A DNA stretch of 38,081 nucleotides from Oscillospiraceae bacterium. GTDB taxonomy: Bacteria > Bacillota > Clostridia > Oscillospirales > Oscillospiraceae. The stretch lies in contig JAFSZH010000082.1 of NCBI GenBank assembly GCA_017455685.1, positions 1 to 38,081 on the forward strand, in the 5' to 3' direction. Every line of letters begins with the position of its first letter. Within the stretch, counting starts at the first letter, position 1. The position numbers were made by a program, and so were the translations under genes. Below the pieces are notes generated by a model that saw only the letters and a program-made list of their open reading frames with translations, searched no databases and was not told where the DNA came from. Shown here in pieces: positions 1,624-27,473 of this stretch.

Positions 1624-1652
1624 AAAAAGAGGCGCCGAAGCGCCTCTTTTTT
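1624..1652. terminator. Bidirectional terminator behind the spoIIE operon
   Basis: A 7-bp GAGGCGC/GCGCCTC stem (1629-1635 with 1640-1646, loop CGAA) is flanked by A and T runs on both sides. The minus-strand transcript of the 135-residue protein gene ends here. Confidence 0.85.
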
Positions 1653-2059
1653 CACATGACGCGGGCCATCTGCACCATAACCCAGGCCAGGGCCGCCGCT
1701 GCCGCCCCCGCCACCGCGTAGAGCGCATTGCGCAGCCGGGGCAGCAGAGCGCTCCATCGGGACCCGCCGGTCAGGAGATACCCGCTGACGGCCTGCTGCG
1801 CCTGGCGCAGCACCTCCTGCTGGCTGACGCCGGTCTCGCCGGCATAGTCCTCCCGCACGATAAAGATCGCCTGTTCAAAGATCTTCGGGTCCGGCGACTT
1901 GACCACGATGATCCGTTTGGAAATACCCTTGACCACCAATCCGCCCCCTTCCGCTTCTTCCGGTGGATTATACAAGGATTCCCGTTTCAGGCCGGTTTTA
2001 GTCCGGGCAAACGCAGCTTTTCCCCGCAGTGTCCGGGCCACGCCTTCAAACAGATTCAC
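1652..2059 (-). CDS. Small protein with one C-terminal membrane segment, coupled to spoIIE
   Basis: I do not recognise a named family with certainty. The 135-residue product has a basic N-terminus, a central soluble part containing the stretch KSPDPKIFEQAIFIVREDY (roughly residues 54-72), and one hydrophobic helix near the C-terminus (about residues 113-130), so it is probably tail-anchored. Its GTG start overlaps the TGA that ends the full-length spoIIE frame (GTGA), which implies translational coupling and a shared sporulation-period transcript. The terminator sits immediately after the stop. A role in sporulation is inferred only from that coupling. Note that translation of this gene may suffer from the TAG codon 140 bases upstream in spoIIE. 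Confidence 0.75.
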   Translation of the reverse strand: MNLFEGVARTLRGKAAFARTKTGLKRESLYNPPEEAEGGGLVVKGISKRIIVVKSPDPKIFEQAIFIVREDYAGETGVSQQEVLRQAQQAVSGYLLTGGSRWSALLPRLRNALYAVAGAAAAALAWVMVQMARVM

Positions 2060-4389
2060 GCTCTCTCCTCCACCCGCACGGCCAGCACGGTCATATCATC
2101 GGAATATCCGTAGCGCTCGCCCGCCTGCCGAATCACGCTCCTGGCCAGTGCCCGGGTGTCGGTGCCCTCAAACTCCATGAGCATGTCCCGGAGCCACTAA
2201 TCGTCCTGGGAGGACACCACGCCGTCGCTGGCAATGAGCGCCACTCCGCCGGGCTTGATGCGCATGCGCACCACGTCCGGGGGCTCGCCCTCCTCCGCCA
2301 GAATGCCCGCCGCCATGGTCACACCCTTGATGCGCCGGACTATCTTGCCGCTGCGGATGTAAGAGGGCGCCGCGCCGTATTTATAGAACCCCGCCTGGCC
2401 GGTGAACAGGTCCACGCACATGAGGTCCACAGTGGCGTAGCCCCAGTTCTCCCCGTTTTTCAGCAGCATGACGGAGTTGAGCAGCTTCATGGCCGTGCCG
2501 GGCTCCACCCCGGAGCGGAGGAAGCGCTCCAAAATCCGCACAACGGAGATGGACTCCTTCGCCGCCTCCTCCCCGCTGCCCATGCTGTCGGACAGCACCA
2601 CGCAGAGCACTCCCTGCTCGGTCTTGAAATAGGTGCCCCGGTCGCCGGAGACCGGCTCGCCCTCCTTTTTCATGGCGGCCACGCCCACGGACACCGCCAA
2701 GGGCTCCGCCTCCAGAAGCACCATCTTCCCCTGTTCCCGATTGGAAGCTGCCGGGCGGCACATACGCACTCCCAGAGTCTCGGAGATCCGGTCAAGATAG
2801 TCGCTCTCCCGGGTGAGGATGGGAAGTCGGGCGCTCTCTACCACCGCGTGGAGACGGCCACTCGGGTCCCGGAACACGGACACGGAAGCGTTCACGTCCT
2901 TACTGTTCAGGTAGCGCAGCAGCCGCCGCTCCCCCAGCGGGTCGGTCCCGGCGGCGCAGCGCAGGTCCTCGGACACCGCGTCCAGCACGCCGGCCAGGTA
3001 GCGGTACTGGCCGTAGGCCGCCGTCCGGTTTTCCTCCAGCCGGGTCTTCAGCTGGCGGCGGTAAATGAGCGCACGGAGCTCCATGTTCACCGCCGCGATA
3101 AAGCTCTCGGCCCGTCGGCAGTTTTCCCGGAAGCGCTCCGGAAGATCCGCGCTCTCCAGCCGTCCCCGGCGGCGCATGGCATCCGTGGCGTCGTTGAGCA
3201 TATTCAGCGTGTCCACGTAGTTGAGCTGCCAGCACTCGCCTTTTTTCGGGCAGGCGGCGCACACCGCTTCCGCCGCCCGGTCGTAAATGGTAGCCACGTC
3301 CGCATCGTTGGAGCCGCTCTCCGCGCTGCGCCGGACCGTCTCATACAGCTCCCGGAAGGCCTCTGCCAGTTCCCGGGTGCGGCCGGAGGTGTAGTACCGC
3401 AGGCCGCTCTCCCCCAGTCCCGCCGCCGGCTGCCGTACGCCGGACACGGCCATGGTCATGGCCCCGGCGGGCAGGATCAGAAAGATCACGCTGGCCGCGA
3501 ATGCTTCGTACAGCGCCGGGAGGCAGGGGTTGGTCTCCCAGCTCCAGAACACCGCCAGGGTGTTGGCCGCCAGATAGATCAGCAGGAACAGCAGCCGTCC
3601 CTGCCGTTTCAGCGCTCCGGAGAGCAGCCCGGCAAAGCCGTAGCACACGGTGAAGAGCGCAGCTTCCCCGGCGGCCAGGTCCATGGAAAGGCCCGTGATC
3701 ACGCCCACAAAGGCTCCGGTCATGCTCCCGCCGCCGAAGGCCGCCACCATCACGCAGAAAACCGCCAGCACCCGCCCCACGCATACCGCGTCAAAGAGGG
3801 TGATCCGGCTCAGCGCCATGAGAAAGCAGCACAGCAGCAGTACGCCTCCCGCGTCCCGGCGCAGCTCGTCCTGCTCCCGTCTGGCCGGAACGGAGGACAG
3901 GGCCATCACGAAGAGGTAGGCCCCCAGGCCTGTGAGCATGACCTCGGTAAGCAGCTCCACCAGAGCCTGGAGCCGGAAGAGCCGGCCGTACAGATTCAGC
4001 GCCCCGGTGGCCGCCATCACGGCGGAGGCCGCCGCCGGCATGAACCAGATCTTCCGACCGCTCCGGGTCTCCCGGCACAGGAAGGCGATGGTGTAGGTCA
4101 TCACCAGCGCCGCCAGATACCGCAGCGACCAGCCCACGCCGCCGGAGACCACGTAGCCAAGCCCGGCCCCCAGCAGGCACATCAATCCGCCCACGCCGCC
4201 CCCGGCCCGGGCGGCCATGGCCACGCCGAAGGGCCCGCAGCTGCCGAAGATCCGCACGTTTCCTGTCACAAAACCCAGGGCAAAGTGGGTAAACAGCGAA
4301 GCGGTGCGGATCGCCGCGGGCCGGTTGATCCTCAGCTTTCTCTGTTCCAGCGGGTTTTTTATCCCCATGATCCTGCCATCCACCGACAT
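2056..4389 (-). pseudogene. spoIIE: Stage II sporulation protein E (serine phosphatase), interrupted by an in-frame TAG
   Basis: SpoIIE dephosphorylates SpoIIAA in the forespore to free sigma-F and also sits at the polar septum. The N-terminal third is a run of hydrophobic helices as in the family; a central domain and a C-terminal PP2C phosphatase domain follow. Recognisable phosphatase motifs are SDSMGSG, GYATVDLMCVDL, YGAAPSYI and IASDGVV. At 2197-2199 the frame meets TAG. Beyond it the same frame continues without a shift for 46 residues, starting WLRDML and including YSDDMTVLAVRV, the final metal-binding Asp motif, up to TGA at 2056-2058. Stopping at TAG gives a product truncated inside the PP2C fold. 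I place the start at ATG 4389, because GGAGGAG lies six bases before it; an upstream ATG at 4404 would put that site inside the gene. The motif usually reads SDGMG; here Ser replaces Gly. Confidence 0.85.
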
Positions 4390-4570
4390 CAAGCACTCCT
4401 CCATGCATCGTTTTGATGGCTCTGATGATACCCCGGCCCGGGTTCAAAGGCAGTCATACGGCGCTGTTGGATTTGTGTTTTTCTCTTTCGGAAATGGGCG
4501 GAAATAAGGCCCCGGCGCGGTACCGGGTCCGGCCGGGGCGGAGGATCGCTCTTTCATTTCCCGCGCAAAA

Positions 4571-6224: not shown

Positions 6225-6890
6225 TCATTGTCTTTTTTCTTTGTTTTTGCGCGGCGTGGCGACGGCGGCGGCCAGGACCTCCTCCGCGCCGGCGAGCATC
6301 AGCATTCTGGCGCATTCGGAGACCGTGGCGCCGGTGGTGACCACGTCGTCTATCAGCAGGACGCGTTTCCCCCGCACCGGGTTCGGGTCGATCACCCGGT
6401 AACAACCGGACACGTTGGCCCGCCGGGCCTCCGGCGTGCGGATGCCGGACTGGGGCGGGATCTCCCGGATCTTTTCCAGAAGGGGCTCGGCCTCAGTCCC
6501 CAGCTCCTCCGCCGCAGCCTCCGCCAGGATCCCGGCCTGGTCGTAGCCCCGGCGGCGCAGCCGTTTCCGGCTCAGCGGCACCCAGGTGATCACGTCAAAG
6601 CTCCGCTCCTCCTCCCGCAGCTTCCGGGCGATCATCCGTCCGTAGACCCTGCCCCGGGCGGGAGCGCCGTGGAACTTGAAGCGCAGGATGGACGCTCGGA
6701 CAACGCCCTCGTAATACAGCGGCGCGGTGACAGAGGAGACAAAATCCGCTTTCCGCTTTTCCGGGCCGGTATAGGGCAGGTCCTTCCGGCAGTCGGGGCA
6801 GACCTCCTCCGACGGCCGGGAGAGCACCTTTCCGCAAAAGGGGCATTTGGGCGGAAAGAGGAAATCCAGAACGGCGGTCAGGGCGCTCAT
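6225..6890 (-). CDS. comFC: ComF-family phosphoribosyltransferase-like protein
   Basis: ComFC-type proteins act in DNA uptake and handling of single-stranded DNA during natural transformation in the cytoplasm. The 221-residue protein starts with a four-cysteine zinc-binding knuckle (Cys16, Cys19, Cys31, Cys34), followed by a type I phosphoribosyltransferase fold ending in the PRPP loop VLLIDDVVTTGAT, with SGxRxPEARRANVSG before it. Its ATG overlaps the TGA of recD2 (ATGA), so the two are translationally coupled. comFA and comFB are not in the window. Many non-competent clostridia keep a lone comFC, so competence should not be assumed. Confidence 0.92.
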   Translation of the reverse strand: MSALTAVLDFLFPPKCPFCGKVLSRPSEEVCPDCRKDLPYTGPEKRKADFVSSVTAPLYYEGVVRASILRFKFHGAPARGRVYGRMIARKLREEERSFDVITWVPLSRKRLRRRGYDQAGILAEAAAEELGTEAEPLLEKIREIPPQSGIRTPEARRANVSGCYRVIDPNPVRGKRVLLIDDVVTTGATVSECARMLMLAGAEEVLAAAVATPRKNKEKRQ

Positions 6891-9154
6891 TGCACTTCAC
6901 CCGCCAGCCTGGCCCGCAGGCCGCTGTACCGTCTGGTCTTGCGGCCGTTCTCGATCATGCTCTCTACGATGATCGAATCGCCCACGATAATCAGCAGCTC
7001 CCTGGCCCGGGTCACGGCGGTATACAGCAGATCCCGGCTCAGCAGCCGCGCGGGGGCCCGTCCGGCTGCCAGCACCACGGCCCTGTACTCGGAGCCCTGG
7101 CTCTTGTGGACGGTCACGGCGAAGGCGTGCTCCAGCTCCCCCAGCTGCTCGTAGCCGTACCAGGTGAGCTTTTCGTCGAAGTCCACCCACACCAGCTCGT
7201 TGGCCGTGTCGATGCGGAGGATACGGCCCAGATCGCCGTTGAAGATGCCGGTGCCGGTCTCCGGCGCAGAGCCGGGTGCCGCTTTCCCGTCCATGATGGC
7301 GGCGGCGTCGCCGCCCTTGCACCATACTATATCATAGTTGTTCCGGATTTGCATCACTCTATCGCCCTCCCGGAACACTGTTTCGCCAAATATTTTTTCC
7401 TTTTTCTCCGGCGAAGGGGGGTTCAGCGCCTCCTGCAGCCGCCGGTTCAGGGCAAAGGTGCCCGTTTCCCCCTTGCGAGTAGGCGTCAGCACCTGGATCT
7501 CCCCGGGGTCAAAGCCCATGTTTTTCGGCAGCCGTTCGCGGCAAAGCTCCACCACAGTGGCGGAGATCTTCTCCCCGGTGCCCCGCTGGAGGAAGAAAAA
7601 GTCCCCCCGGTTCTCCCGGAGATCGGGCACGGCCCCCCGGTTGATGCTGTGAGCGTTGCTGATGATGCGGCTCTCCCCGCTCTGGCGGAACACCTCCGTC
7701 AGCCGGACGGAGGCCACCGCCCCGGAGCGAAGCACGTCCAGGAAGAAGCTCCCCGGCCCAACGCTGGGCAGCTGGTCCGCGTCGCCCACCAGCACCAGCC
7801 GACAGCCCCGGGGCAGGGCCTTGAGCAGGGCGTGGATCAGGGTGATGTCGATCATGGAGCACTCGTCCAGGATCACCGCGCCGCAGCGGAGGGGCTCGTT
7901 TTCATTCTTCCGGAATACCAGCTCGTCCCCCTCGGCGGCCCAGGCCGCACCCAGCAGGCGGTGGATGGTAAAGGCCTCCTGCCCGGTGAGCTCGGTCATC
8001 CGCTTGGCGGCGCGCCCGGTGGGGGCGGCCAGCAGACAGTCGATCTGCAGCTCTTCATACAGCCGCAGAATGGCCTTGATGATGGTGGTCTTGCCCGTGC
8101 CGGGGCCGCCTGTCAGCGCCAGCAGCCGCCGGGAAGCGGCCAGCTCGATGGCCTGGCGCTGCTGGGAGGCGTAGCGCATGCCGCTCTCTCGTTCCAAATC
8201 GTCGATGAGCCGGTCGAGACCGGCCGGAGGGGTCAGCTTCTCCCCGGCCATGGACCGCAGGGTCTCCGCCGTACAGGATTCCGCCTCGTACAGCCGCCGG
8301 AGATACACCGCCGTCACGTTGGCCACCGGCTGGATCACCGCTTCGCCCTCGTCGGAGAGCACGTCCAAGCACTCGTCCGCCGTTTCTGCGTCCACGCCGA
8401 TGAGCTGGGCGGTGGCCGCCACCAGCTTTTCCCGGGGGAGAAAGCTGTGGCCGTTGTTGAGATTATGTACCATCTCGAAGACCAGCGCGGCGGTGATGCG
8501 CTGGGGGCTGTCCTCCTCAAAGCCCAGGGACAGCGCCAGGGCGTCGGCCTCGTCAAAGCTGCCGCCCACCCGGTCGGTGGCGATCAGATAGGGATTCGCC
8601 CTGACCATTTCCAGAGCGCCGTCGCCGTAGAGCTTGTAGAGCCGCATGGCGTATTCGGGCCGGAGGGCGTTGGCGGAGAGGAACTCCAGCAGCACCCTGA
8701 GCCCGGCCTGCCGCCGGAAGGTCTCGCTGATCTCCCGGGCGCGCCGGGCGCTGATGCCCTTTACGTCCGTGAGCCGGTCCGGATCGTCGGAGAGCACGTC
8801 CAGCGTACGGCTGCCGAAGCGGTTCACCAGCAGCGCCGCCGTGGCGGGGCCCACGCCCTTCACCACGCCGGAGGCCAGGTATTCATAGATATGCCGCTCC
8901 CCCACCGGCAGGCTGCGCCGGGCGGCGGAGGCCTTGAACTGGTCCCCGTGGCTGGGGTGGCGCTCCCACGCGCCCTCCACCGTCAGCCCCTCGCCGGGGG
9001 CGGCAAAGGGCAGGCAGCCCACCACCGTGACGGGCTCGTCGCCCCCCACGTCCAGCCGCAGGACCGTATAGCCGTTCTCCTCGTTCTGGAAGATCACGTT
9101 TTTGACCGTGCCCACCAGCTGGATCTCTTCGCTCAGTCCGTACTCTTCGTCCAT
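6887..9154 (-). CDS. recD2: RecD2-type SF1B DNA helicase
   Basis: A 5'-3' helicase related to RecD but working without RecBC, linked in Firmicutes to repair and replication-fork maintenance. The 755-residue protein has an N-terminal OB-like region (about 10-80), helix-hairpin-helix units around residues 95-145 (VVKGVGPATAALL, DVKGISARRA), Walker A GGPGTGKTT at 349-357, Walker B ILDECSMID at about 428-436, motif III GDADQLPSVGPG at about 457-468, and the C-terminal helicase segment with AFAVTVHKSQGSEY. Length is normal for RecD2. It starts 15 bases downstream of uvrA with GAGAGGAA before the ATG, and overlaps comFC by four bases, so repair and recombination genes share one transcript. Confidence 0.95.
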   Translation of the reverse strand: MDEEYGLSEEIQLVGTVKNVIFQNEENGYTVLRLDVGGDEPVTVVGCLPFAAPGEGLTVEGAWERHPSHGDQFKASAARRSLPVGERHIYEYLASGVVKGVGPATAALLVNRFGSRTLDVLSDDPDRLTDVKGISARRAREISETFRRQAGLRVLLEFLSANALRPEYAMRLYKLYGDGALEMVRANPYLIATDRVGGSFDEADALALSLGFEEDSPQRITAALVFEMVHNLNNGHSFLPREKLVAATAQLIGVDAETADECLDVLSDEGEAVIQPVANVTAVYLRRLYEAESCTAETLRSMAGEKLTPPAGLDRLIDDLERESGMRYASQQRQAIELAASRRLLALTGGPGTGKTTIIKAILRLYEELQIDCLLAAPTGRAAKRMTELTGQEAFTIHRLLGAAWAAEGDELVFRKNENEPLRCGAVILDECSMIDITLIHALLKALPRGCRLVLVGDADQLPSVGPGSFFLDVLRSGAVASVRLTEVFRQSGESRIISNAHSINRGAVPDLRENRGDFFFLQRGTGEKISATVVELCRERLPKNMGFDPGEIQVLTPTRKGETGTFALNRRLQEALNPPSPEKKEKIFGETVFREGDRVMQIRNNYDIVWCKGGDAAAIMDGKAAPGSAPETGTGIFNGDLGRILRIDTANELVWVDFDEKLTWYGYEQLGELEHAFAVTVHKSQGSEYRAVVLAAGRAPARLLSRDLLYTAVTRARELLIIVGDSIIVESMIENGRKTRRYSGLRARLAGEVQ

Positions 9155-9169
9155 AGTTCCTCTCTTCCG

Positions 9170-12034
9170 TCAGGAAGCGTCCTCCGCCTCCTGCCGCCGG
9201 CCCCGTTCCAGCACCGGCTTCAAAAACTGTCCCGTGGCGCTCGCCTCACACGCGGCGCACTCCTCCGGCGTTCCGGTGAAGATCACCATGCCGCCGGCGT
9301 CGCCGCCCTCCGGGCCCAGGTCGATGATGTGATCGGCGCATTTGATCACGTCCAGATTGTGTTCGATGACGATCACGGTGTTCCCCGCCTCGGTGAGGCG
9401 CTGGAGCACCTGGATCAGCTTGTGGATATCCGCCGAGTGCAGGCCGGTGGTGGGCTCGTCCAAAATATACACCGTCCGGCCGGTGTCCCGCCGGGACAAC
9501 TCCGTGGCCAGCTTTACCCGCTGGGCCTCACCGCCGGAGAGGGTCGTGGAGGACTGGCCCAGCTTCACATAGCCGAGCCCCACGTCCATGAGCGTCTGGA
9601 GCCTGGGCACCAGCTTAGGCTGGTTTTCAAAGAAGGTCAGTGCCTCCTCCACGGTCATATCCAGCACGTCGGCAATGTTCTTACCCTTGTAATGGACCTC
9701 CAGCGTCTCCCGGTTGTAGCGCTTGCCGTGGCACACGTCGCAGGGCACGTAGATATCCGGCAGAAAGTGCATTTCGATCTTCACCAGGCCGTCGCCGGAG
9801 CACGCCTCGCACCGGCCGCCCCGGACGTTGAAGGAGAACCGTCCCGGCCCGTAGCCCCGGAGGGCCGCCTCCTTGCTGGAGGCGAACAGGTCCCGGATAT
9901 CGTTGAAGAGCCCGGTATACGTGGCGGGGTTGCTCCGGGGCGTCCGGCCGATGGGCGTCTGGTCGATGGCGATGACCTTGTCCACGTACTGCAGTCCGTC
10001 GATGCCGTCGTGCTTTCCCGCCCGGACCTTGGTGCGCATCTTTTCCGCCGCCAGAGCCTTGTAGAGCACCTCGTTCACAAGAGAGGACTTGCCCGAGCCG
10101 GACACGCCCGTGACGCAGATCAGCTCGCCCAGAGGAAACGCCACGTCGATATGCTTCAGATTGTTCTCCGCCGCGCCCCGGACCACCAGCTGCTTTCCGC
10201 TGCCCTGCCGCCTTGTGCCGGGCAGGGGGATGCGCTTTCTGCCGCTGAGGTAATCGCCGGTGACGCTCCGGGGGCAGGCGCAGATATCCTCCACGCTGCC
10301 CTGGGCCACGATCTCGCCGCCGTGGACCCCGGCTCCGGGGCCGATGTCCACCAGGTAGTCCGCCGCCCGCATGGTGTCCTCGTCGTGCTCCACCACGATA
10401 AGGGTATTGCCCATGTCCCGCAGATCCTTCAGCGTCTGCAGCAGCTTGGCGTTGTCCCGCTGGTGCAGGCCGATGCTGGGCTCGTCCAGGATGTACAGCA
10501 CCCCCATCAGGGAGGAGCCGATCTGGGTGGCCAGCCGGATCCGCTGGGCCTCGCCGCCGGAGAGGGTGGCGGCGGCCCGGGAGAGAGTGAGATACTGCAG
10601 GCCCACGCTCCGCAGGAAGCCCAGCCGAGCCCGGATCTCCTTGATGATCCGGTCGGCGATCATGTGCTGCATGGGCGTGAGCTCCTTCTCCGCCTTATCC
10701 AGAAAGCGAAGGCAATCCATCACCGGCAGGTCGGAAAACTCCGAGATATTCAGCCCGCCCACTGTGACGGCCAGCACCTCCTTCCGGAGACGGCGGCCGC
10801 CGCAGTCCGGACAGGGCACCTCCGCCATGCACTGCTCGATCTCCGCGCGCATGGCGGGGCTCTGGGTCTCGCGATAGCGCCGCTCCAGATTGGCGGCGAT
10901 GCCCTCAAAGGCCTGGTAGAGGGTCCCCTTCCCCCGCTGCTGGTCGTACTGCAGGGTCAGCTTTTCCCCCTTCGTGCCGTAGAGGATGGCGTCCAGAGCT
11001 TCTTTGGGCAGCTCACGCACGGGCTGGTCCAGGCGGAAATGGTATTTTTTGGAAAGCGCGTCGAAGTACATCCGGGAAATGGTGTCGCCCCGGATGTTGC
11101 CCCAGCCGCTGGCCACGATGCCCCCGTCCAGCAGGGACAGGGACGGGTTCGGCATGATCAGCGTGGGGTCCACCCGCTGCTGGGTGCCCAGGCCCGTGCA
11201 GGTGGGACAGGCGCCGTAGGGGTTATTGAAGGAGAAGGACCGGGGCGCCAGCTCCTCGATGGAGATACCGCAGTCCTCGCAGGCGTAGTTCTGGGAGAAG
11301 GACAGGGTCTTATCCTCCCCCGGCAGGTCCACCATCACCAGTCCCCCAGCCAGATTGGAGGCGGTCTCCACCGAGTCGGTGAGACGGCGGCGGACCTCCG
11401 GCTTGATGATCAGCCGGTCCACGATGATCTCGATATCGTGCTTCTTGTTCTTTTCCAGCGTGATATCCTCGGACAGGTCGTAGACGATGCCGTCCGTCCG
11501 GGCCCGGACGTAGCCGCTCTTCCGGGCGTCCTCGAAGATCCGGGCGTGCTCGCCCTTCCGGCCCCGGATCACCGGCGCCAGGATCTGGATGCGGGTGCCC
11601 TCGGGCAGGGCCATCACCTGGTCGATGATCTGGTCGATGGTCTGCTGGCGGATCTCCTTGCCGCAGTTGGGGCAGTGGGGAATGCCCACCCGGGCCCACA
11701 GCAGGCGCATATAGTCATAGATCTCCGTGACGGTGCCCACGGTGGACCGGGGATTCCGGCTGGTGGTCTTCTGGTCGATGGAAATGGCCGGGGAAAGACC
11801 GTCGATATAGTCCACGTCCGGCTTTTCCATCTGCCCCAGGAACATCCGGGCGTAGGAGGACAGGCTCTCCACGTACCGGCGCTGGCCCTCGGCGTAAATG
11901 GTGTCGAAGACCAGGGTGGATTTGCCGGAGCCGGAGATGCCGGTGAAGACGATCAGCTTCTCCCGGGGGATCTCCAGATCCACGTTTTTCAGGTTGTTCT
12001 GCCGCGCGCCGCGGATGAGAATGGTGTCTCTCAC
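9170..12034 (-). CDS. uvrA: Excinuclease ABC subunit A
   Basis: The damage-recognition ATPase of nucleotide excision repair; it loads UvrB on lesions. There are two ABC ATPase halves: Walker [10 protein letters not shown] at residues 32-40 and a second [11 protein letters not shown] in the C-terminal half; two LSGGEAQR signatures; and zinc-binding Cys pairs (CEDCG...CPTC; CEAC...CDVC). The glycine-rich C-terminal tail is replaced by [10 protein letters not shown]. About 954 residues is normal. An upstream in-frame GTG (12046) is possible, but GTG at 12034 fits the usual beginning [13 protein letters not shown] and has GAGG six bases before it. It is the first gene of the run and has a near-consensus promoter at 12089-12117. 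uvrB and uvrC are not in the window. Confidence 0.97.
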
Positions 12035-12088
12035 GATGTGCCTCACAGTCTTGGAATAAGTGAATATCCGTCAGTTCGTAACTTGTTT

Positions 12089-12117
12089 ATTATACCTGAT
12101 GATCCCGCTTCTGACAA
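12089..12117 (-). promoter_or_regulatory. Promoter of the uvrA-recD2-comFC-mreB run
   Basis: Minus-strand TTGTCA (12112-12117) and TATAAT (12089-12094) with a 17-base spacer, about 55 bases upstream of uvrA. No convincing LexA site overlaps it. Confidence 0.8.
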
Positions 12118-12154
12118 GGACAATTTCATTTCCGCCCGCATCTGCCGTCTTTCA

Positions 12155-12184
12155 TTGACAGCCTCGGCGGCTGTGTGATATCGT
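12155..12184 (+). promoter_or_regulatory. Possible promoter of the ECF transporter locus
   Basis: TTGACA (12155-12160) is followed after 18 bases by TATCGT (12179-12184), 66 bases before the ATPase start. The -10 is imperfect. The leader 12185-12250 shows no riboswitch that I recognise. Confidence 0.45.
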
Positions 12185-26363: not shown

Positions 26364-26396
26364 GTCCGTGGTCCGTCAAAAGAAAGGGTGTCGTCC

Positions 26397-27473
26397 ATGC
26401 TTGAAAAGATCCGGCAGCTGGCCCGGAGGTATGAGGAAATCGAATACTCTCTCGCCCAGCCGGAGGTCTGGAACGACGCGGAGCTCTCCCGCCGTCTGAC
26501 CCGGGAGCGTTCGGAGCTGGCGCCGGTGGCAGAGGCGTGGAAGCGCTATGAAAGCTGCCGGCGGCGGCGGGAGGACGCGCTTGCCCTCTCCGCCGACGCG
26601 GAGCTGCGCGCCCTGGCCCAGGAGGAGGCGGAGGAGGCTCTGCGGGGCATGGAAGAGGCCCGGCAGGAGCTGCGGCTGCTAATGCTGCCCAAAGACCCGG
26701 ACGACGGAAAAAACGTCATCATGGAGATTCGCGTAGGCGTAGGCGGCGAGGAAAGCGCCCTCTTCGCGGCGGATCTTTTCCGGATGTACTCCATGTACGC
26801 CGAGCGGCGGCACTATCAGATCGAGATCGCCAACCGCAGCGAGACCGAGCTGGGGGGCATCCGGGAGATCAGCTTCGTGATCCAGGGAGCCGACGCCTAC
26901 TCCCGCTTCCGCTTTGAGAGCGGCGTCCACCGGGTCCAGCGCGTCCCGGAGACGGAGACCCAGGGCCGCATCCACACCAGCACCTGCACCGTGGCCGTTC
27001 TGCCCGAGCTGACGGAAAGCGAGTTCAACCTGGACCTCAACGACGTGCAGATCGACACCTTCCGCTCCTCCGGCGCCGGCGGGCAGAAGGTGAACAAGAC
27101 CTCCAGCGCCATTCGTGTCACGCACATCCCCACCGGGACCGTGGTGGAGTGCCAGGACGAGCGCAGTCAATACAAGAACAAGGCCAGGGCGCTGAGCATA
27201 CTGGCCTCCCGGCTGGCCCAGGCGGAAAAGGAGCGGCAGGACGCCGCCGTATCCGCCCAGCGCCGGTCCCAGATCGGGTCCGGCATGCGCAACGAGCGCA
27301 TCCGCACCTACAACTATCCCCAGGGCCGCGTCACCGATCACCGGATCGGGCTGACCCTGTACAAGCTGGACGCCGTACTCAACGGCGATCTGGACGAGCT
27401 GATCGACGCCCTGCTCACCGCCCGGCGGGCAGAGCAGCTCCAGCAGTCCGGACAGGAGGACGCAGCCTTATGA
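26397..27473 (+). CDS. prfA: Peptide chain release factor 1
   Basis: Recognises UAA and UAG in the ribosomal A site and triggers peptide release. The 358-residue protein has the stop-codon-reading tripeptide Pro-Glu-Thr at 184-186 within [14 protein letters not shown], and the catalytic Gly-Gly-Gln at 228-230 within [14 protein letters not shown]. Length and both motifs are normal for RF1, so it should read UAG. The start is ATG 26397, after AAAGGGTG; a GTG three codons earlier is a less likely alternative. The stop overlaps the next ATG (ATGA). prmC, which methylates the GGQ glutamine and commonly follows prfA in Firmicutes, is not next to it here. Confidence 0.96.

Follow-up and report, generated by a model that had tools for sequence, protein, structure and literature searches.

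In the excerpts of PMC5468089, the putative metal-coordinating side chains of Bacillus subtilis SpoIIE are D628, D746 and D795, and the carbonyl of G629 is a further metal ligand. The loss of sporulation is common in gut Firmicutes, according to excerpts of PMC8340488. The skin and gin elements, which interrupt sigK and gerE respectively, are excised during sporulation, as described in part of PMC5595907. No natural spoIIE allele with a nonsense codon or premature stop was found in the titles or abstract openings of the few papers listed on this subject. Here we describe a spoIIE gene with an in-frame TAG in an Oscillospiraceae bacterium. The window, that is, the whole stretch of DNA analysed, is 38,081 nucleotides in length (contig JAFSZH010000082.1). 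It belongs to the draft assembly GCA_017455685.1, which comprises 85 contigs with a total length of 1.89 Mb, is 72% complete and is referred to below as the studied genome.

The spoIIE gene and its in-frame TAG

Read on the minus strand of the window, the frame of spoIIE ran from 4404 downward through 735 codons, a TAG, 46 further codons and a TGA. The features of the gene and of its neighbour are as follows.

2056..4404, minus strand: spoIIE, 782 codons including the TAG codon, then the stop TGA at 2056-2058 (Pfam domains, alignments to relatives)
2914..4308, minus strand: SpoIIE_N domain, residues 33-497 (PF19732, E 3.5e-37)
2059..2724, minus strand: PP2C phosphatase domain, about residues 561-782, interrupted by the TAG
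2197-2199, minus strand: in-frame TAG, codon 736
2059..2196, minus strand: the 46 C-terminal codons after the TAG, coding-like, with constraint as in congener pairs
1652..1939, minus strand: next gene, a conserved small protein (conservation in congeners; probable true start near 1936-1939)

The initial annotation had reported a single in-frame TAG in spoIIE. This was confirmed by the minus-strand reading and by a whole-genome profile search with PF07228, which independently returned the locus with '1 TAG' inside. The identity of the gene was borne out by long alignments to relatives and by the Pfam domains of the window protein, in which SpoIIE_N was followed by PP2C SpoIIE. The PF07228 match had an E value of 2.1e-17 even without the tail behind the TAG. 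Against the NCBIfam equivalog TIGR02865, the protein scored 334 bits when read through and 313 bits up to the TAG, compared with a cut-off of 490.8. The alignment nevertheless covered positions 4-763 of 764, and the shortfall may be a lineage effect.

The 46-codon tail located 3' of the TAG (WLRDMLMEFEG...YSDDMTVLAVRVEERA, 2059-2196) was aligned with relatives and with the structures of B. subtilis SpoIIE. Its coding score was +0.43 per codon. The alignments and the score together indicate that these residues are the SpoIIE C-terminus, as had been proposed. The TGA had also been said to overlap the next start codon. An open frame at 1652-2059 does reach the spoIIE stop through GTGA (2056-2059), and GTG is a possible start. 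However, the part of the next gene that is conserved among congeners begins only at about 1936-1939 (VVKGISKR...), so the true start probably lies about 120 bases further on. A Pfam search of this gene at E 1e-5 gave no match.

Elsewhere in the window, a 1762-codon open frame was found at 6890-12178 on the plus strand, opposite recD2 and uvrA. It probably arises as a side effect of codon usage rich in G+C.

Active-site residues

The metal ligands of B. subtilis SpoIIE were mapped onto the window protein by hand via alignment to PDB 3t91 and 5mqh. One constant offset fitted all three Asp residues, the construct name 590-827 being taken from the excerpts of PMC5468089.

2587..2589, minus strand: Asp606, a retained metal ligand corresponding to B. 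subtilis D628
2584..2586, minus strand: Ser607 (AGC) at the position corresponding to Gly629, where all 52 other sequences have Gly
2224..2226, minus strand: Asp727, a retained metal ligand corresponding to D746, located 5' of the TAG
2098..2100, minus strand: Asp769, a metal ligand corresponding to D795, missing if translation stops at the TAG

The three Asp ligands were present in all 30 aligned sequences, the studied protein being read through, and the equivalent of D795 was located 3' of the TAG. Termination would remove the last metal-binding Asp (D769), in agreement with the initial annotation. The same annotation held that the rest of the gene was without other damage, and this was not quite the case. 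Residue 607 was Gly in 29 of 29 relatives and in all 52 sequences of the wider set, and was Ser in the studied genome only.

Ser607 was the sole deviation of the studied protein at PP2C columns conserved to at least 98%. One to four deviations at such columns were counted in 15 of 53 sequences, including three in the congener G005, and none of those listed for other sequences fell on the three Asp or on the Gly629 column. A single deviation of this kind is ordinary in number and unusual only in its place. In other PP2C families, the place of Gly629 is taken by a different residue. Since Gly629 acts through its backbone carbonyl, Ser may be tolerated at this position. The presence of Ser607 favours a real loss over a base error only moderately.

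Codon 736 in relatives

The site of codon 736 was aligned first in 29 relatives and then in 52 distinct sequences. The column was variable, with GGC, GCC, GCA, ACG, CAG, GAG, CGC and other codons, and no stop was present in any of the 52 distinct relatives, three of which were gapped there. We also searched 400 genomes of the family, a sample of a larger group, for spoIIE; 335 had a match and 65 had none. Among the 150 matches listed, the studied genome was the only one with a stop-bearing row.

Probable recent inactivation, or base error

We consider, with moderate confidence, that the window carries a natural allele of spoIIE recently inactivated by a nonsense substitution. Such a substitution at a variable, non-catalytic position would end SpoIIE 46 residues early. 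The truncated protein would keep the membrane and regulatory parts and would lose the end of the PP2C fold together with the D795-type metal ligand, so that neither dephosphorylation of SpoIIAA-P nor release of sigma-F would be expected of it. The Ser at the place of Gly629 in the same active site would suggest that the phosphatase was already no longer needed or was losing its activity. On sequence grounds, we infer that phosphatase activity has been lost and that sporulation has been lost or impaired. The allele is most likely ordinary in kind, a loss-of-function mutation and not a case of a novel codon reading.

The dN/dS of the tail was 0.11-0.25 in four pairs of the studied genome and a congener versus 0.16-0.43 in six congener-only pairs, values that rest on 46 codons and are hence rough. 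That the tail has not decayed agrees with the recent date first assigned to the event, and it fits a fresh mutation and a base error alike. Because the tail is undecayed and Spo0A, SpoIVA, SigF and SpoIIAB are intact, any loss must be very recent.

The main rival to the loss-of-function allele is that the metagenome assembly contains a consensus base error or mixes strains, in which case the actual or predominant codon would be a sense codon and spoIIE would be intact. We regard this as a tentative alternative, possible but on the unlikely side. In its favour, only a single base of a draft genome is concerned, and the tail is under normal constraint. When 436 kb were scanned for stops flanked by coding signal, 27 candidates were obtained, spoIIE among them. 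On visual inspection, most of the others were ends of genes with a start codon soon after, a few being less clear, and spoIIE was the only in-frame interruption judged clear in the sample, which fits a rare error.

Several observations weigh on the other side. In uvrA, located on the same contig, the studied genome had no singleton deviations at 376 invariant columns of 30 sequences, so the contig is not visibly error-ridden, although this control is weak because six of the 29 other sequences had none either. Rows of the uvrA alignment often showed an internal stop; these were taken mostly as natural ends at ragged alignment ends, so a stop column alone is weak evidence. Frequent assembly errors were considered and rejected, as the stop scan and the uvrA comparison showed little sign of them. 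A base error also leaves Ser607 as a second rare change in the same active site. Finally, codons one substitution from TAG were a minority in the column, seven of 49 (three CAG, three GAG and one AAG), and the six same-genus codons (GGC, GGC, GCC, ACA, GGG and GGA) were all at least two substitutions away.

A possible function of truncated SpoIIE

The 735-residue SpoIIE might still be useful at the division site or septum, with another phosphatase serving SpoIIAA-P. The N-terminal part of the protein is intact, and two other PP2C-type proteins are encoded at C66 (about 580 aa) and C8. However, the C66 phosphatase adjoins an apparent anti-sigma antagonist of its own and a kinase-like gene and so probably has its own target, and no internal-stop row was seen in the other 149 matches listed. 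We consider a useful truncated protein highly unlikely.

At C66, locus L151 13440-16740, this second PP2C (SpoIIE-type) phosphatase is followed by a putative fused anti-sigma-antagonist and kinase-like gene. It is possible that the phosphatase and its neighbour form a separate partner-switching module.

Reading of UAG

Partial reading of UAG as sense, by near-cognate read-through or a suppressor tRNA, would supply full-length SpoIIE at a low level. We find this less credible still. The window itself encodes release factor 1.

26394..27446, plus strand: prfA, intact gene of release factor 1, whose product should recognise UAG as a stop (TIGR00019, 480 bits against a cut-off of 423)

Since release factor 1 is intact, UAG should terminate. 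ARAGORN, applied to the loci of tRNA matches, found no CUA anticodon among 25 tRNA loci, although such a tRNA could sit in the missing part of this incomplete genome. The sole match for PylS in the 72% complete genome was below the cut-off and lay in a gene that, from its sequence, is putatively lysyl-tRNA-synthetase-like. A release-factor-2 match with an apparent internal 'TAA' was rejected; the TAA is the gene's own end, and the frame is intact over 369 aa.

Gene calling on 436 kb of the 1.89 Mb gave 394 genes, of which 246 ended in TGA, 137 in TAA and 11 in TAG, spoIIE included. TAG is thus rare as a stop and its leaky reading would cost little, but the ten other TAG-ended genes had no coding signal past the stop, their scores being 0 or below compared with that of spoIIE. 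The undecayed spoIIE tail would also suit read-through, yet TAG was absent from the site in the 52 relatives and in the other 149 matches listed. The RNA fold 3' of the TAG was no better than that of shuffled sequences (z = 0.53), and so gave no sign of a structured read-through signal.

UAG therefore appears to be a normal stop in the studied genome. Read-through and recoding, both offered in the initial annotation, found no support in the release factor, the tRNA and PylS searches, the unconserved codon or the ordinary fold, and a TAG kept among relatives as a conserved recoded codon was not borne out. Recoding of UAG is judged unlikely from release factor 1, the tRNAs, PylS and the other TAG-ended genes. 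The least probable proposal is that UAG acts as a leaky brake in a host-adapted lineage, low read-through letting a few cells sporulate and the stop codon tuning the frequency of sporulation.

Sporulation genes of the genome and genus

Open frames for Spo0A, SpoIIAA, SpoIIAB, SigF, SpoIIGA, SigE, SigK and SpoIVA were present in the studied genome. Those of SpoIIAA, SigF, SpoIIGA, SigE and SigK were the best matches, yet fell below at least one NCBIfam equivalog cut-off; SigE passed NF006158 and SigK passed the subfamily model NF004471. When eight or nine genomes were compared, the singleton residues of the studied genome numbered none in Spo0A, three in SpoIVA, one in SigF and two in SpoIIAB. 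General decay of sporulation genes was rejected, as these four proteins showed no clear excess of odd residues relative to congeners.

In the congener G003 (78% complete), no match was obtained for SpoIIE, Spo0A or SpoIVA, and none at the level of SigF or SigG. From this gene content, G003 is likely to be a non-sporulating congener, which makes a loss of sporulation within the genus plausible. Of five relatives with contigs, four were Oscillospiraceae, one of these from sheep rumen.

Interrupted sigG

The sigG sequence of the studied genome ceased after about codon 95 and ran into an unrelated gene near the contig end. For this gene, no Pfam match was found, and there was one weak PHROGs match of unknown function. 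With SigG of G006 as the query, 36 of 50 genomes had a full-length gene and eight had no SigG-level match. The gene was split near residue 94-98 in G011, G012, G030 and G037, the studied genome had the first half only, and G009 had two overlapping pieces on two contigs. The break point common to five of the 50 genomes was between FSTYGVPMI and GEIRRYLRDN. The breaks are located as follows.

L173 1423-2621: studied genome, C27, near the contig end
L229 407-7642: G030
L232 4553-6602 and L233 4256-4597: G011
L230 4282-5467: G012
L196 5024-5326 and L197 3484-4050: G037

In G030, the two halves of sigG were on one contig, about 6.4 kb apart, and a serine recombinase gene (Resolvase, Recombinase and zinc-ribbon domains) was located directly 5' of the second half, as it was in G011. 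In G037, recombinase genes were present on both contigs, away from the break. Short direct repeats around CCGATGA at both halves were common to G030, G011 and G037. The first gene beyond the break was homologous in the studied genome and G012 (76% identical), and these two shared another junction sequence, as compared at DNA level for the first half of G012. The sigG site thus seems to serve two or more kinds of element. By analogy, the interruption looks like a skin-type intervening element. Among the literature matches listed and the excerpts consulted, sigG was not seen as a target of such excised elements. If the element is excised in time, sigG of the studied genome need not be dead, and its interruption was therefore not counted as proof of lost sporulation.

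The 6.4 kb element of G030 (L229 883-5453) carries an apparently metabolic cargo of genes putatively for alcohol dehydrogenase, aldehyde ferredoxin oxidoreductase and molybdopterin-type proteins; genes of phage origin were not seen by eye. In G012, a DUF499 protein, presumably of a type found in defence islands, is encoded beyond the break (L230 10133-12001).

Comparison with known systems

If the stop is real, a member of a gut-associated family would have been caught at the start of sporulation loss, with its forespore switch disabled and most of the tested genes intact. If it is a base error, sporulation calls made from gene presence in draft genomes can miss single-codon lesions, or such lesions can be invented. 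The recoding reading would have mattered most and is unsupported.

Systems that read UAG as sense, through pyrrolysine or a suppressor tRNA, resemble the window gene in having an in-frame UAG with coding sequence on both sides. The studied genome differs from them in that release factor 1 is present, PylS and a CUA tRNA were not found, and one gene only is affected in the sample. The sigG interruption, with the recombinase and direct repeats seen in some relatives, is similar to the sigK skin and gerE gin elements described in part of PMC5595907.

The window protein shares with B. subtilis SpoIIE (PDB 5mqh, 3t91 and 5ucg; excerpts of PMC5468089) an alignable PP2C domain, the three Asp in frame and the two SpoIIE Pfam domains. 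It differs in having a TAG before the last ligand and Ser in place of Gly629. The sporulation loss of gut Firmicutes, as given in excerpts of PMC8340488, is similar in that a sporulation gene is disabled, the named relatives are host-associated and the congener G003 is without the tested genes. However, most of the tested genes are intact in the studied genome, which would represent an early stage and not a completed gene loss.
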